A stretch of 30,039 nt of DNA from a virus, in IMG/VR virus record IMGVR_UViG_3300009104_000083, positions 1 to 30,039 of that record. The stretch is one strand, 5' to 3'. This document shows positions 2,659 to 10,218 of the stretch, piece by piece. The stretch's first letter is position 1. The number at the start of each line of letters is the position of its first letter. Made by a program: the position numbers and the translations under genes. The notes below the pieces were generated by a model. It was not told where the DNA came from. It did no database searches and was given only the letters and a program-made list of their open reading frames with translations.

Positions 2659-2892
2659 CTACGAGTTAGCTACCTTCCGCTCTGCTTTGATTCTTTCTTG
2701 CCGCATTTTAGCCCACTTCATCGTAGCAGTAGGATAATCCCCACTAATCGGATCAATAGCTAAACTGGGACAAGAAACTACTCTGGTTGACTCTTGATTG
2801 CAGATGTCACAAGTATCTTGATAAACAGATTCATCTACAAGCCTTTCTACATAATGCCCATCAGGACATTTAAAGTCATAGATTCTTTTCAT
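2659..2892 (-). CDS. small FmdB-type zinc-ribbon protein
   Basis: A 77-residue protein with MKRIYDFKCPDGHYVERLV at the start and CDICNQ at residues 28-33. The arrangement Cx3Hx(n)CxxC is that of FmdB-like zinc ribbons, which are common as small genes beside phage portal and scaffold genes. The function there is not known. The C-terminal half is basic (KMRQERIKAERK). It overlaps the end of the upstream gene by 17 bases. Confidence 0.6.
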   Translation of the reverse strand: MKRIYDFKCPDGHYVERLVDESVYQDTCDICNQESTRVVSCPSLAIDPISGDYPTATMKWAKMRQERIKAERKVANS

Positions 2893-3112
2893 CTTCGTTT
2901 ACCAATAACTCAACCTGAGTTTCTAAAGAAGCTATAAAGGCGATAATATTTAATTGTCCCTTACGGAACTGCAAATCATCGTTGTCTTTAGTCGCTTCTA
3001 CTGAATTACATTCTTCCTTACTTTTGGATAAATCCTCTAGTAATATTTTCCAGCCTTTAGTACGAAACATATCGTACATGGCTTCAACATATTTTTCAGT
3101 CTCCTTATCCAT
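2876..3112 (-). CDS. hypothetical protein in head operon
   Basis: A 78-residue, soluble and mostly helical protein with GWKILLEDLSKSKEE (about residues 20-34) and LQFRKGQLNIIAFIASLE in its second half. Proteins of this look often sit between portal and scaffold genes in podoviruses, but I do not know their role. It is translated from ATG 3112 just after the portal gene and overlaps the zinc-ribbon gene. A structural-chaperone or head-completion role would be speculation. Confidence 0.55.
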   Translation of the reverse strand: MDKETEKYVEAMYDMFRTKGWKILLEDLSKSKEECNSVEATKDNDDLQFRKGQLNIIAFIASLETQVELLVNEDEKNL

Positions 3113-3145
3113 ATTAAATTAACATAAGTCCCTATTAACGAACAA

Positions 3146-5206
3146 TTAGTTATTTAATTGCATCTTTCTGTTTTCAATATTAACTCGTTCCTGTTCAACG
3201 CCTAAACGCTCCTGCTCAATCCCTAGCTTTTGTTCGTCTACAAGCGTATCGGCTATCTTAGCCCTTCTCATAAATTCATCTTTATCCATCTCGCCTTCGG
3301 CTTTCATTGTTGTTGCCAAAGCCTTGAGTCTGTCATTTTCCAGATCAATCGGAATAGCCTTGGTTTCTGTGGCAATCTTACCAGCTCTGGCCTGAGATTC
3401 CGCAGCCTGACCATTAAGCGCATTCGTCTGAGATTGCTGAAATTGTAACTGTGATTGCTGTGCCACCTGTGCCATTTCCTGTGCTTGAGGATCGGGCTGT
3501 GAAGCCTGTTCAATCGCTTGCATTAACTGTTCCCTGTTTTGAAGCTGCATATTATCAACAATAGATTGAACCAGAATCGGATACATTGGAGATTCCTGCC
3601 CCATAGTCTGAAGTAGCTGAACCAACTGCGTTACTTCGTATTCACGGGCAATAATTCCTAGTGTGGAAGTGACTTCAAAAATGTAGTCATTAACTGGGTA
3701 GTTTTCAGGGTCAAACTGCATATAACGACAAGCAGCACTTTTAACAAAAGGAATTAAAAAACTGTCTTGGAAGTTAATAAGAGTTCGCTTATGACGCTTA
3801 ATGATTGCGCCTAAGTTCATGCTTATGCCAGCAGCAGTAGCTTCACCATTGATAGAACCTGGAACACCAGCCGAATCGATTGCACCAGTGGCAGTCTGCA
3901 CCATTCTCTGCAAAGACTCAGCTTGAGCAAAGGTAATCTGTGAAACCTGCCCGAAATTAAAGGGCTGTAAGACTTCTCTTGGATCACCCGTGGTTAATAA
4001 TATCTTTCCTGCCCTGACTTCAGGCCTTGCCCCTCTTGGCATTCTGGTTGCATCCATAGCCACCATAGGCGCATTGGTTAAAGCTAACGCATCAATTCTG
4101 GCCCTTAATTCAGCATCGAGAGCCTTTTGAGAGTTATAGCCCTTTTCGCAAACGCCTCTTCCCCAGAACCTTCCTGGTACTACATCCCAAGGGAAAGCGA
4201 TAACAGGTCTGTCACCCATCATGTAAGGATTTAACTGTGCTTTTAAAATAGTTGTTTTATTAGCGATGACAACACAGGCTTCAACGTAATAGCTTTCTTT
4301 TACTTCAACCTCTACTTCTACCTCTACATCATCTTCAACAATTTCTTCAACACCGTCTTCAATAGTTTCTTCAAGGCTTTCTTCTGTTTCTTCAAAATCT
4401 ATATCTTCGGTATGCTCTTTAATCAAGTAGCGTGGAACAAGCCCATAATATTTTGTTAAACGGACTTTGTTTTCAGGCTCCTGAGATAAGTTTGGATCAG
4501 CTTCTAAAGCATCATCTCCGTAAGTCTGAGCATAGAACTCAACATCTTCATAAACACCCTGCTCCTGCAACAGCTTAATGGTATGCGGAGAAACGTATTC
4601 ATCAATCGCTACACCAATGGAGTCTTCTACGCTCGTTGCAATCGGGTCTATTAGGAAATTCTGAGGAAGAACGGGCTTTAGCTTAACTACCATCCTTTCG
4701 GTTTCATTAACCCCAAAGGCTTGCATAGTCCCATCTGGCATGGGCTGGGTAGCAGGGGCAAGCTCTGTATCCATGTCCATGACAATCTCTGCAATGCCTG
4801 TGCCAAAAACAGCAGCATTAATCAGGCATTCGCCTACCTGCTTACGAATCTTGTGCTTTCTGAAGTCTTCGTTAAGTTTTGCCCTTAGATAAGCTATGTC
4901 CTGACTTTCAGGGTCACGCATATCATCACGAATCGTAAAGAAAGCTCCACGACCAAAGGTTGCTTCTTCTATTTCGGCTACGCTGGACTCGACCGCTTGT
5001 TGTAAGGCAGGACTTACTATCTCGGAGCGTTCACTCGGGCGCGTTTTATTGTCAGGATTAAAATGTCCACGCCAGAGATCATAGTATTCTTCAAACTTCT
5101 CTTCATAGTTGGAATTATAATGTTCGCGCCACTTTTCACATTTAGCGATTACCCAGCTTTCAAGGGATTCGCTTTCATAAATGCTGTCATCGAATAGTTC
5201 GTCCAT
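3146..5206 (-). CDS. portal protein
   Basis: A 686-residue protein at the place expected for the portal, directly after terL. The N-terminus (WREHYNSNYEEKFEEYYDLWRG, split as WREHYNSNYEEK and FEEYYDLWRG, residues about 26-47) and TRPSERSEIVSPALQQAVES (55-74) are typical of P22-like portals. The last 130 residues are Gln-rich and helical, like the barrel region of such portals. An acidic Glu/Val/Asp stretch at residues 267-304 looks like an insertion. The portal forms the DNA entry ring at one vertex and binds the terminase and the tail adaptor. Confidence 0.88.
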   Translation of the reverse strand: MDELFDDSIYESESLESWVIAKCEKWREHYNSNYEEKFEEYYDLWRGHFNPDNKTRPSERSEIVSPALQQAVESSVAEIEEATFGRGAFFTIRDDMRDPESQDIAYLRAKLNEDFRKHKIRKQVGECLINAAVFGTGIAEIVMDMDTELAPATQPMPDGTMQAFGVNETERMVVKLKPVLPQNFLIDPIATSVEDSIGVAIDEYVSPHTIKLLQEQGVYEDVEFYAQTYGDDALEADPNLSQEPENKVRLTKYYGLVPRYLIKEHTEDIDFEETEESLEETIEDGVEEIVEDDVEVEVEVEVKESYYVEACVVIANKTTILKAQLNPYMMGDRPVIAFPWDVVPGRFWGRGVCEKGYNSQKALDAELRARIDALALTNAPMVAMDATRMPRGARPEVRAGKILLTTGDPREVLQPFNFGQVSQITFAQAESLQRMVQTATGAIDSAGVPGSINGEATAAGISMNLGAIIKRHKRTLINFQDSFLIPFVKSAACRYMQFDPENYPVNDYIFEVTSTLGIIAREYEVTQLVQLLQTMGQESPMYPILVQSIVDNMQLQNREQLMQAIEQASQPDPQAQEMAQVAQQSQLQFQQSQTNALNGQAAESQARAGKIATETKAIPIDLENDRLKALATTMKAEGEMDKDEFMRRAKIADTLVDEQKLGIEQERLGVEQERVNIENRKMQLNN

Positions 5207-7156: not shown

Positions 7157-7582
7157 CTACACATCATCTTCCTCAATAGCCTGGACTTCTACTACCTCCT
7201 TCTCCTGAACCAACGAATTTACGTTAATTTGAATCTGGGGCTTCTCGGCCGTTCTAAGCTTGTTTTCGCTCCACCCTGCCTGAGTCTTGAGGAAAAAGAT
7301 TGCGGCCGTTGTATCGCCTCCTATGGCTTTGTTGACCAGATTAGACGCTACTTCCGCGACCTTATCACTCTTGTGTTTTTTATACAGTGCAGCAACCTCT
7401 TCATCACGTTCCAGTATTTTAAAGAAAGTCCTGCGGGGAATCTTCAGGGAATCAGCAATCATATCAGTCGTTAAATAAGGAGCCATCCAAGTCAGCTTCT
7501 CCTTTTGCTCTTCAGTAAGCACAATCATCGGCCTACCGCCTAAATTCTTTTCAGGGGCTTTGTCAGGTACTAGGTCAGTCAT
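7157..7582 (-). CDS. terS: terminase small subunit-like DNA-binding protein
   Basis: A 141-residue protein that leads the late operon. It has a helix-turn-helix segment TTDMIADSLKIPRRTFFKIL (about 38-57) and a helical stretch ending in TTAAIFFLKTQAGW (about 91-104), both typical of phage small terminase subunits that recognise the packaging site and form a ring. The acidic tail EEDDV may contact the large subunit. It begins 15 bases from a perfect parS sequence. An AGGATGTT sequence before ATG 7582 can serve as ribosome site. Confidence 0.75.
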   Translation of the reverse strand: MTDLVPDKAPEKNLGGRPMIVLTEEQKEKLTWMAPYLTTDMIADSLKIPRRTFFKILERDEEVAALYKKHKSDKVAEVASNLVNKAIGGDTTAAIFFLKTQAGWSENKLRTAEKPQIQINVNSLVQEKEVVEVQAIEEDDV

Positions 7583-7641: not shown

Positions 7642-7834
7642 CATATCTTGCGTTTTCCGAATAATACAAACCAGAAACCCGAACTACAAGCAGTTCACAG
7701 TTCCGGTTTTGTATGTGGGTGGGAACTATATAAATTAAGTAGGCCCGCGCCCCCTCCCCGTCCTCTTTTTCCGACCCCCTCAACATTAATGAACCTAAAC
7801 TGTTGGTTCTAGTTTGTTGGGGAGTGCTTGAACT
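7622..7834. repeat. GAACT motif array in the divergent control region
   Basis: The pentamer GAACT or its complement occurs seven times: 7622, 7631, 7681, 7692 (reverse), 7699 (reverse), 7723 and 7830. Less than one would be expected in the 391-base gap. Two form the direct repeat GAACTTTTAGAACTTTT, and two pairs lie in an 11-bp inverted repeat (7675-7685 with 7699-7709, one mismatch). The spacing between the early and late promoters suggests operator sites. The rest of the gap (7740-7870) holds a C-rich stretch and a purine-rich tract and shows no gene I trust. Confidence 0.45.
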
Positions 7835-7908
7835 GACTGCAGAGAAAAGAAAGAGAGAGAGAAGTACCCAAAACAAACAAATGATTTATTAGAAAACGTA
7901 AATAATTA

Positions 7909-7937
7909 TTGACCTGATGAAATGTTTAAACTAGAAT
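7909..7937 (+). promoter_or_regulatory. sigma70-type early promoter
   Basis: TTGACC (7909-7914), a 17-base spacer and TAGAAT (7932-7937) match 5/6 and 5/6 of the consensus. It lies 37 bases before the first early gene, so the leader is short. The spacer contains a GTTTAAAC palindrome (7924-7931). It is the best promoter in the window and indicates that host RNA polymerase starts the early operon. Confidence 0.8.
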
Positions 7938-7973
7938 CACTCTATCACTAAATAAAAGAGGATACTTATACAG

Positions 7974-8171
7974 ATGAAGCAATATCAAAGACACTTAGAA
8001 ATGGCCGACAAACTGGCAGCAGTTGGAAACTACGGCTTAGCCATTACCAACATTGAAGCCCTCATCAGATCAGCGAGAAGCGATAAAGCGAAAGCATACT
8101 TGCAATCTAAGCTTTTAGATATAGACCTTAAGCGGCTTATGATTATCGAACTGTTAGACGCCTCCAACTAA
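7974..8171 (+). CDS. hypothetical early protein (65 aa)
   Basis: First gene after the early promoter. The 65 residues are predicted to be all helix, with MADKLAAVGNYGLAITNIEA (10-29) and a heptad-like Leu/Ile pattern that recalls a single tetratricopeptide-type hairpin. No family is recognised. The GAGG sequence about 12 bases upstream is a weak ribosome site. First-in-operon position is typical of host-takeover genes, but nothing in the sequence shows the target. Confidence 0.55.
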   Translation: MKQYQRHLEMADKLAAVGNYGLAITNIEALIRSARSDKAKAYLQSKLLDIDLKRLMIIELLDASN

Positions 8172-8966: not shown

Positions 8967-9119
8967 ATGAAAAAACTTCACAGAGCGGCCAAAAATTCTT
9001 GGATAGGGTATCGTGAGTTTGGCAAGGGAGTCCTGATTGGCGCGGCGTTTACATTTGGCGCGGCGTTTACGGCGTTTTATTTTTATGCCCTTATCACTTT
9101 TATTTTTCTTGTCGGGTAG
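8967..9119 (+). CDS. single-span membrane microprotein (50 aa)
   Basis: A 50-codon gene from ATG 8967, two bases after the previous stop, with GAGGGTG as ribosome site. It has a basic amphipathic head (KKLHRAAKNSWIGYREFGKG) and one hydrophobic segment (residues about 21-49) ending in LVG. The segment contains an internal tandem repeat of GGCGCGGCGTTTAC, giving GAAFTFGAAFT. It most likely sits in the inner membrane with the N-terminus in the cytoplasm. The role is unknown; early membrane proteins of phages often act in exclusion or in taking over the host. Confidence 0.55.
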   Translation: MKKLHRAAKNSWIGYREFGKGVLIGAAFTFGAAFTAFYFYALITFIFLVG

Positions 9120-9122
9120 CCC

Positions 9123-9368
9123 ATGAGCGTCATCAGACCATATCACGACCAAAAAGACACTGTGACTATTAAACTTAACGGAGCAGAGATTGAGTACGAG
9201 GTTAATTACGACGTAGTTTTAGCCGAACCGGACATTGGAGTATTCGGAAACGGCAACGTAGCGATTGTACTTAATTGGGCAAGAAACCTGGAGACTGATG
9301 AACACCTAAACGACAACACGATAATCGAGAGTTTGATTACAGACGAGCTGTTTAAACAGCTTCCCTAA
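9123..9368 (+). CDS. hypothetical early protein (81 aa)
   Basis: An acidic 81-residue protein (TIKLNGAEIEYEVNYDVV near the N-terminus, then NDNTIIESLITDELFKQLP at the end). It is predicted soluble with a beta-rich first half. It starts four bases after the microprotein stop, which shows cotranslation. Two terminator-like hairpins follow its stop, so it is probably the last gene of the first early transcript. No family is recognised. Confidence 0.55.
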   Translation: MSVIRPYHDQKDTVTIKLNGAEIEYEVNYDVVLAEPDIGVFGNGNVAIVLNWARNLETDEHLNDNTIIESLITDELFKQLP

Positions 9369-9375
9369 TTAAAAA

Positions 9376-9400
9376 CGCCACCCTGCATAACAAGGTGGCG
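9376..9400 (+). terminator. hairpin after the first early gene group
   Basis: CGCCACC (9376-9382) pairs with GGTGGCG (9394-9400) around an 11-base loop. A-rich sequence precedes and CTGTTGATTTGAT follows, so the T-tract is broken. It could act as a weak terminator in either direction. Confidence 0.5.
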
Positions 9401-9410
9401 CTGTTGATTT

Positions 9411-9439
9411 GATATTCCGAGCGAAAGAGAATATCTTTT
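9411..9439 (+). terminator. second hairpin with T-tract
   Basis: GATATTC (9411-9417) pairs with GAATATC (9429-9435), followed directly by TTTTAAATT. The loop holds GCGAAAGA. With the preceding stem it makes a tandem terminator at the end of the first early gene group. The stem is AT-rich, so its strength is moderate. Confidence 0.55.
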
Positions 9440-9443
9440 AAAT

Positions 9444-9801
9444 TGTCGGCGGGTTAGCAGCCCTTAATGCCGAGCGGGAAAGAGAGAAAGCACTGAGCAC
9501 TACCGACAGTCGCAATTCTCCTATCCCCTCAAGCAATAAGTCAAGCATTCCCGCCACAAGATATTGTGGTGTTGCCTATGTCCGACCACTAAAAACTCAA
9601 GACATACTCCAAGTGAGGTTAAGCGAAGACAAAATCTAGGCGCTGTCTAACCCTTGACAACCTAGCCCATGAAGTCTGATGTATTCAGGAGCGATTCACT
9701 CTGGAGAGTGGCCGAAAGGCGGGGGAACATTGAGTACCTGATACACATTTTTTGTGTATTACTGTTGATTCAGGCATGAGTTAAAGGATTAGCTTCATGG
9801 G
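9444..9801 (+). ncRNA. candidate structured noncoding RNA
   Basis: This stretch has no convincing gene but many complementary segments. The 3' part looks like a closed multi-branch domain: CCCATGAAG (9666-9674) pairs with CTTCATGGG (9793-9801) and encloses CTGA/TCAG (9676-9688), CACTC-TGGA-GAGTG (9697-9710), GCC-GAAA-GGC (9711-9720), and CCTGA/TCAGG (9737-9741, 9770-9774) around ATACACA/TGTGTAT (9741-9759). In the 5' part, TGTCGG pairs with CCGACA (9444, 9503), GCGGGAA with TTCCCGC (9474, 9548, which would make a pseudoknot), CCACAA-GATA-TTGTGG is a perfect hairpin (9554-9569), and GGTTA pairs with TAACC (9617, 9648). No known RNA family is recognised. Strand and ends are inferred. It could also be the leader of the next gene or an origin. 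Confidence 0.4.
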
Positions 9802-9846
9802 GGAAAAAGGGGAAGTTATAACTTATTGAAACTACAGGAGAAAATT

Positions 9847-10218
9847 ATGTCTGATGATGATGATTTTGATACAACAGACCCGTTCAAACTATATCGAAGC
9901 GATGACCCAGAAACCTCAGCTATTGGGGCGCACATTGTCAATAGCGCACACTTGAAACAGATAGTGTATGCGATGGTTAAGGACTCTGGCATGAGAGGAC
10001 TAACCCCGAAGGAAGCTGAAGTAGCCTACGAAAAGCTCTTAGGAAGAAGAGTTACTGGCGGGACAATTTCCGGCAGACCCAAAAATTTAGAAGAGGATGG
10101 TTTGATCTTTTATTTGGGGGATAAGCGCGACAACAGCAGGGTTATGCGAGTCAAGGACTGGGATGGAAAGTTATTTTTAAACGCAGCCGGAGAAGCGGCT
10201 TTAATTGAGGAGAAATAG
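9847..10218 (+). CDS. winged-helix-type DNA-binding protein
   Basis: A 123-residue protein with an acidic N-terminus (MSDDDDFDTTDP) and DDPETSAIGAHIVNSAHLKQ (about 18-37). A winged-helix-like part follows: GLTPKEAEVAYEKLLGRRVT, then GRPKNLEEDGLIFYLGDKRD, where the second helix and wing would lie. Phages carry many small proteins built like this, usually called regulators. I chose ATG 9847 because AGGAG (9836-9840) lies six bases upstream; a TTG seven codons earlier (9826) is unlikely. It follows the candidate structured RNA and may be controlled by it. Confidence 0.6.
   Translation: MSDDDDFDTTDPFKLYRSDDPETSAIGAHIVNSAHLKQIVYAMVKDSGMRGLTPKEAEVAYEKLLGRRVTGGTISGRPKNLEEDGLIFYLGDKRDNSRVMRVKDWDGKLFLNAAGEAALIEEK

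Follow-up and report, generated by a model that had tools for sequence, protein, structure and literature searches.

We identified a structured RNA of about 370–400 nt on the + strand of a phage genome, and the evidence is secure that it represents a new RNA family within a known kind, the large structured phage RNAs. The RNA lies in the window, by which we mean the whole stretch of 30,039 nucleotides analysed (IMG/VR record IMGVR_UViG_3300009104_000083). The best explanation of its role, which we rate somewhat above even probability, is that of an operon leader with its own promoter, a cis-acting member of the new family.

Locus and coding status

A 37,078-base contig of the same virus places the end of the window before its beginning. 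The structural genes of the window read leftward and the early genes rightward, the latter including SSB, a NinB-type, a NinG-type and a replication-type gene. The RNA region is located between a small gene (9123–9368, + strand) and the gene at 9847–10218 (+ strand), with the following features:

9409–9437, + strand: probable sigma70 promoter (−35 TTGATA at 9409–9414, 17-bp spacer, −10 TATCTT at 9432–9437)
9443–9815, + strand: structured RNA, from folding, relatives and covariation
within 9802–9846, + strand: conserved tail GGAAAAAGGGGAAG, nearly invariant in the window and the relatives L088 and L133
9813–9824, + strand: perfect palindrome AAGTTATAACTT
9835–9840, + strand: ribosome binding site CAGGAG
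9847–10218, + strand: downstream gene (123 aa), no family match

The region had been described as free of genes, and the analysis agreed: no frame was open in all three close members, and substitutions were distributed 9/11/9 over the codon positions. A protein-coding reading was rejected because no reading frame is kept and the substitutions lack a codon period. Elsewhere in the window, a perfect 16-bp direct repeat with its copies 18 bp apart (9037–9070) was observed within a 50-aa ORF (8967–9119).

Relatives and sequence conservation

Two close relatives (L088 and L133) and one distant relative (L020) were found; the RNA of L020 is identical in L023, which comes from another sample, and the family sample consists of four distinct sequences, three of them close. 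L088 was located via a neighbouring protein and L133 via a degenerate pattern with a variable tetraloop, and in both the upstream neighbours are the same as in the window. Over 194 gap-free columns (window 9631–9824), L088 and L133 were 85% and 86% identical to the window, respectively, and a sliding window–L088 comparison peaked at 86–87% identity at 9645–9844. The four-fold degenerate sites of shared genes were mostly 0.30–0.46 identical, which is near saturation, and the protein of the gene just upstream was 23–35% identical. The high identity of the RNA beside these low values indicates that the non-coding stretch is more constrained than its neighbours. Within the family, the 5' half is variable and the 3' half is conserved.

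A covariance model of the 194 columns matched L020 at 7673–7925 (E = 1.3e-4); blastn gave no link between L020 and the window RNA. A descriptor scan covering 2.9 Mb, the two strands summed, looked for hairpin D with helix E and a tail able to pair with loop D; L020 shared the top score among 234 hits of the generic descriptor, and the descriptor with the exact D geometry returned the four members only. The motif CTGWC-N8-GWCAAC was likewise confined, among the loci fetched, to family members. The model rebuilt with L020 yielded no further members in the loci or records examined, the full records of about 70 related contigs yielded the known members only, and blastn searches of phages and plasmids with the region returned nothing or chance matches. 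No second copy of the RNA was found in the same genome, and the RNA was absent from relatives of gene 8545 (L137–L169). The long non-coding gaps that precede other terminase relatives showed no model match and mostly ordinary folding.

Pattern matches in L083, L084, L086, L132 and L134 were rejected, the short tetraloop hairpin being all that they share and the surrounding sequence unrelated, as were two further matches in genome contigs in which the covariance model finds no match. Two non-coding stretches of the related phage L004 (2128–2365 and 3355–3585) had folds far below the energy of shuffled sequence (z of −3.3 to −5.7, on 20 shuffles only) and were unmatched by the family model. Also in L088, roughly nine units with a 36-bp period (GAGTCA...AGACAACCA) form an array at 3636–3960, flanked by a short IS110-like Transposase_20 ORF (2761–3627) and a replication-type gene; the array may be an iteron origin or have to do with the transposase-like gene.

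Folding energy and secondary structure

Folding energy was compared with that of dinucleotide shuffles. The region 9440–9846 folded at −123.4 kcal/mol, compared to −104.5 ± 5.6 kcal/mol for the shuffles (z = −3.39; 0/100 shuffles as low). The 3' domain (9655–9815; z = −3.95; 0/200 shuffles reaching the native energy) and the 5' part (9440–9655; z = −3.53; no shuffle reaching it) each behaved likewise. The native fold was far better than shuffled sequence, overall and in the 3' domain, in the energy check that the original prediction had proposed. Two pairings of the window MFE, a long closing helix of the 5' domain and a long-range pairing of F, were rejected since the relatives do not keep them.

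The predicted architecture is a variable 5' half of P1 (possible), K, A and B, a core of C, M, D and E, and then the tail. All elements are on the + strand:

9443–9449 with 9503–9509, + strand: P1 (possible), UUGUCGG with CCGACAG; UGUCGG/CCGACA in the window versus AAGUCGG/CCGACUU in L088
9451–9463, + strand: small hairpin K, GGG/CCC in the window versus GCGU/ACGC in L088
9463–9488 and 9516–9540, + strand: arms of the long interrupted hairpin A, architecture kept and sequence strongly different in L088 and L133
9554–9569, + strand: hairpin B, CCACAA-GAUA-UUGUGG, with an AU-to-UA double change in L088
9577–9582/9601–9606, + strand: hairpin C, its stem being UAUGUC/GACAUA, UUGGG/CCCAG or UUCAG/CUGAA
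9607–9617, + strand: hairpin M, CUC-CAAGU-GAG, its stem being CUC/GAG, GUC/GAC or GUCU/AGAC
9636–9665, + strand: hairpin D, with D1 CUAGG/CCUAG (9636–9640/9661–9665), D2 UGUC/GACA (9644–9647/9656–9659) and an 8-nt loop (9648–9655)
9666–9674/9793–9801, + strand: closing helix E, enclosing F, G, H, I and J
9675–9689, + strand: hairpin F
9697–9710, + strand: hairpin G
9711–9720, + strand: hairpin H, GNRA loop
9719–9727, + strand: conserved single-stranded GCGGGGGAA
9731–9738, + strand: conserved single-stranded UGAGUACC
9739–9761, + strand: hairpin I
9762–9773, + strand: hairpin J
9651–9655 with 9807–9811, + strand: pseudoknot PK, loop D CCCUU with tail AAGGG, invariant in the close members and replaced in L020

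In the 5' half, P1 would pair into the loop of hairpin A and so make a pseudoknot; this pairing is tentative because local pairing at the tip of A competes with it. Hairpin A in L088 reads CCAAGUG..GAUAGA..GUGGGA / UCCUAC..UCUAUC..CACUUGG. The predicted hairpin with a GATA loop, our hairpin B, proved real and carries a compensatory change. The loop of hairpin C holds the motif GACCAY..AACUCAA, and the pattern GACCAY-N(0-4)-AACUCAA occurred, among the loci fetched, in true members only (window, L133 and L020/L023), L088 having a variant.

Hairpin D showed three double compensatory changes in the close members and a replacement by UCCUG/CAGGA in L020, and its geometry (5 bp, 3 nt, 4 bp, loop of 8, 1 nt) is constant in all members. 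The 9-bp closing helix E, already seen in the original prediction, covaries (AU to UA); the three or four hairpins proposed inside it were corrected to five. L020 keeps helix E with another sequence (CCUGGAGAU/AUCUCCAGG), together with UGAGUACC and hairpin I, and the rest of its helix E interior consists of other hairpins. D1, E, C and M are all re-paired in L020 with other letters. The GAAA loop on GCC/GGC (hairpin H) was also real: the three close members carry GAAA, GCAA and GUAA, always GNRA. That the loop stays GNRA despite change suggests that it may make a docking contact.

Covariation, active strand and pseudoknot

Among the three close members, 5 pairs had both sides changed, compared to 1.7 expected, and 4/500 shuffles reached 5; in this count, helix C of L088 stands as MAFFT misaligned it, its reading by hand being UUGGG/CCCAG. 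Overall, 95.6% of cells paired in these members, compared to 34–45% with the partners slid. Broken pairs were fewer than under random substitution with the same number of paired columns (P = 0.0006 for window–L088 and P = 0.0004 for window–L133), values that are supportive and not exact because sites were assumed independent and only three sequences were used, which had partly served to derive the structure. Compensatory changes backed helices B, C, M, D1, D2 and E, so the covariance check proposed for homologues found what it sought. In one-sided changes, six cells gave G-U on the + strand (A-C on the − strand) and one the opposite, suggesting that the active molecule is the + strand.

The possible pseudoknot was confirmed as the pairing of 9651–9655 with 9807–9811. 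In L020, loop D is CUACAGAU, and its UACAGAU pairs with AUCUGUA after helix E as a perfect 7-bp match at the place of AAGGG; such a 7-mer arose in 0.14% of trials with a shuffled L020 tail.

These results also bear on the reading that the region has no RNA function and regulates at the level of DNA, its helices being due to chance. Chance alone can produce single helices of such a size, and a protein may bind at the AAGTTATAACTT palindrome, yet the reading is contradicted by the folding energy, the covariation, the strand-biased G-U changes and the replaced pseudoknot of the distant relative, and we consider it highly improbable. The compensatory changes and the folding beyond shuffles bear out the original proposal of a complex structured RNA. 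The use of AAGTTATAACTT as an operator used elsewhere is unsupported, since the window holds no second copy.

Probable promoter and leftward signals

The probable promoter at 9409–9437 is overlain by an inverted repeat (GATATTC 9411–9417 / GAATATC 9429–9435). L088 has a promoter-like site TTGATA-17-TATCTT with its own inverted repeat, and L133 has TTGCCA-17-TAAATT. Each match is 9/12 and weak singly; what counts is the common placement, the sites of the three close members ending 6–10 nt upstream of the first helix GUCGG. A sigma70-like promoter was not found in L020. The TTGACA box noted earlier at 9654 belongs to hairpin D and does not serve as a promoter element here; the likely promoter is TTGATA 9409 / TATCTT 9432. 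The two terminator-like hairpins said to precede the RNA were also corrected: that at 9374–9402 resembles a terminator leftwards only, and the inverted repeat at 9411–9435 overlaps the promoter.

Leftward terminator-like hairpins were observed upstream of the RNA promoter in the window (9374–9402) and L088 (1229–1247), and in these two members may be a sign that transcription crosses the RNA leftwards. A replication element, or one under antisense control, could use such signals; on the model of ColE1 RNAII, it would make a purine-rich primer, countered by an antisense RNA over the fast-changing 5' half. Leftward promoter-like sites lie inside hairpin D in the window and L133 but were not found in L088 or L020, and the leftward terminator just upstream of the RNA in the window and L088 is missing in L133 and L020. 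The 5' half does diverge fast with its structure kept, and GGGGGAAAAAGGGGAAG would favour an RNA-DNA hybrid; however, the purine run is short in L020 and no origin-like repeats occur at the RNA. We regard this explanation as improbable.

Downstream gene and start codon

Tail conservation extends to the ribosome binding site in the window, L088 and L133, and in none of the four members, within the stretches examined, did a terminator separate the RNA from the gene that follows. The distance from the pseudoknot end to the AUG is 35 nt in the window, 35 nt in L088 and 32 nt in L020, although the genes concerned are of two different kinds; in L020 no ribosome binding site stands out clearly. This fixed spacing, together with the conservation of the tail, favours cis action at the start of the operon. 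We saw no conserved segment able to pair with the ribosome binding site, and the predicted accessibility of the site varies from 0.49 to 0.88 across members, so simple sequestration is unsupported.

The product of 9847–10218 possibly has a winged-helix look by eye, unconfirmed; its AlphaFold model (mean pLDDT 46) was too weak to use. The gene after the RNA in L020 shares 72% identity over 127 aa with a terS-like gene sited elsewhere in L133, the terS-like label being a weak one drawn from position beside lysozyme and large terminase and from weak similarity only. A match of the window gene to this L020 protein was set aside as not significant. The L020 terS-like protein has a 42-aa N-terminal stretch (7948–8073) that is absent from its L133 relative, and its start (MTDSSDTFD) loosely resembles that of the window gene at 9847 (MSDDDDFD), loosely as if the RNA and the first codons had moved together. 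In L020 the RNA lies between two similar palindromes (GTTAGTGTTCACTAAC at 7507–7530 and GTTAGTAAGCACTAAC at 7929–7950), an arrangement that resembles paired operator sites.

Comparison with known RNAs

Membership of an Rfam family requires a covariance-model score at or above the gathering threshold of that family. The window had no match in Rfam 15, including GOLLD, ROOL, OLE, self-splicing introns, riboswitches and RNase P, and a permissive search of the window, L020, L133 and L088 stayed far below threshold, in line with the original statement that no known RNA family was recognised.

RNAs of the GOLLD/ROOL type are homo-oligomeric and often encoded near phage tRNA genes. The present RNA is likewise large, highly structured, phage-encoded and equipped with a pseudoknot, the likes of which those RNAs have as pseudoknots or loop-linker pairing. 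It could by this likeness be a trans-acting RNA that is cut from the primary transcript, folds and perhaps assembles in multiple copies, the D-loop/tail pairing then being possibly intermolecular. GOLLD combines a conserved 3' and a variable 5' region with loop-linker pairing, and the RNA shares its conserved 3' half, variable 5' half, GNRA loop and loop-linker pairing (PMC12286853). A single copy per genome and a position before unrelated genes, which implies that it is not tied to one target, also fit. Against this, the RNA is much smaller and lacks an Rfam match, the 30-kb window contains no tRNA genes, the 3' end has no terminator or processing signal so that the RNA reads into the next gene, and conservation continues to the ribosome binding site. 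We consider this reading unlikely.

HK022 put is an RNA of about 70 nt with two stem-loops, present in two copies downstream of early phage promoters (PMC9378689), and EAR (eps-associated RNA) lies within its own operon (PMC7858274). By analogy, the RNA could be a processive antitermination leader, the nascent RNA binding RNA polymerase so that the whole operon is read. It lies on the sense strand at the head of an early operon, just past the promoter (in the window group), and is independent of the following gene; as a structured sense-strand element within an operon it also resembles EAR. As to the placement downstream of an early promoter, the three close members have a promoter-like site, and none was found in L020, whose RNA precedes a terS-like gene. 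In contrast to put, the RNA has more than 10 helices, a pseudoknot, a length of about 370–400 nt (five times that of put) and one copy per phage instead of two, and antitermination does not require conservation up to the start codon. Terminator-like sites in the downstream operons were no more frequent than in shuffled sequence, leaving little to read through except Rho; compared to EAR, the RNA is phage-borne, has no Rfam match and has no clear downstream terminators to overcome in view. This explanation too is given a low probability. By the defining tests that could be run, the RNA qualifies as neither a GOLLD nor a put RNA.

The conserved multi-branched core, the near-invariant single-stranded linkers and the pseudoknot shortly before a start codon are shared with complex riboswitches and protein-binding leaders, from which the RNA differs in having no match to a known Rfam aptamer and no conserved sequestering of the ribosome binding site.

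Proposed function and significance

In the window group the RNA is on the sense strand, follows a probable promoter of its own, has no terminator and adjoins a start codon, as expected of a cis-acting leader; in L020 no promoter was found. We place cis action a little below even probability on this sequence evidence; the weights given to it, to the GOLLD-like reading and to antitermination are judgements and were not computed. In the cis-acting leader model, the RNA would be transcribed from its own sigma70 promoter as the 5' leader of the following operon, the E domain (GNRA hairpin and invariant purine-rich linkers) would recognise a protein or small molecule, and closing or opening of the D-tail pseudoknot 32–35 nt before the first start codon would set expression of the first gene, be it through translation, transcript stability or elongation. 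Such recognition with pseudoknot switching is what we infer to be the most likely mode of working, at just under an even chance.

The RNA precedes an early gene in one group and a terS-like gene in another. Because these genes are unrelated, no single gene is an obvious target, and the arrangement favours a portable module, which could be a leader that responds to a signal, an antitermination element or an RNA that is released. It is rare for a new RNA family to combine more than 10 helices with a covariation-backed pseudoknot and a near-invariant core, and a core of this kind usually has a specific recognition or catalytic job. The RNA is among the best conserved stretches of the genome, though it encodes no protein, which indicates that the phage probably depends on it. 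It is possible, at clearly less than an even chance, that the family is a class of pseudoknotted phage RNA moving between operons, and acting either as a regulatory module complete in itself or as an RNA machine in its own right that assembles via the D loop and the tail. Its position before two unrelated genes makes the RNA open to testing as a portable module.
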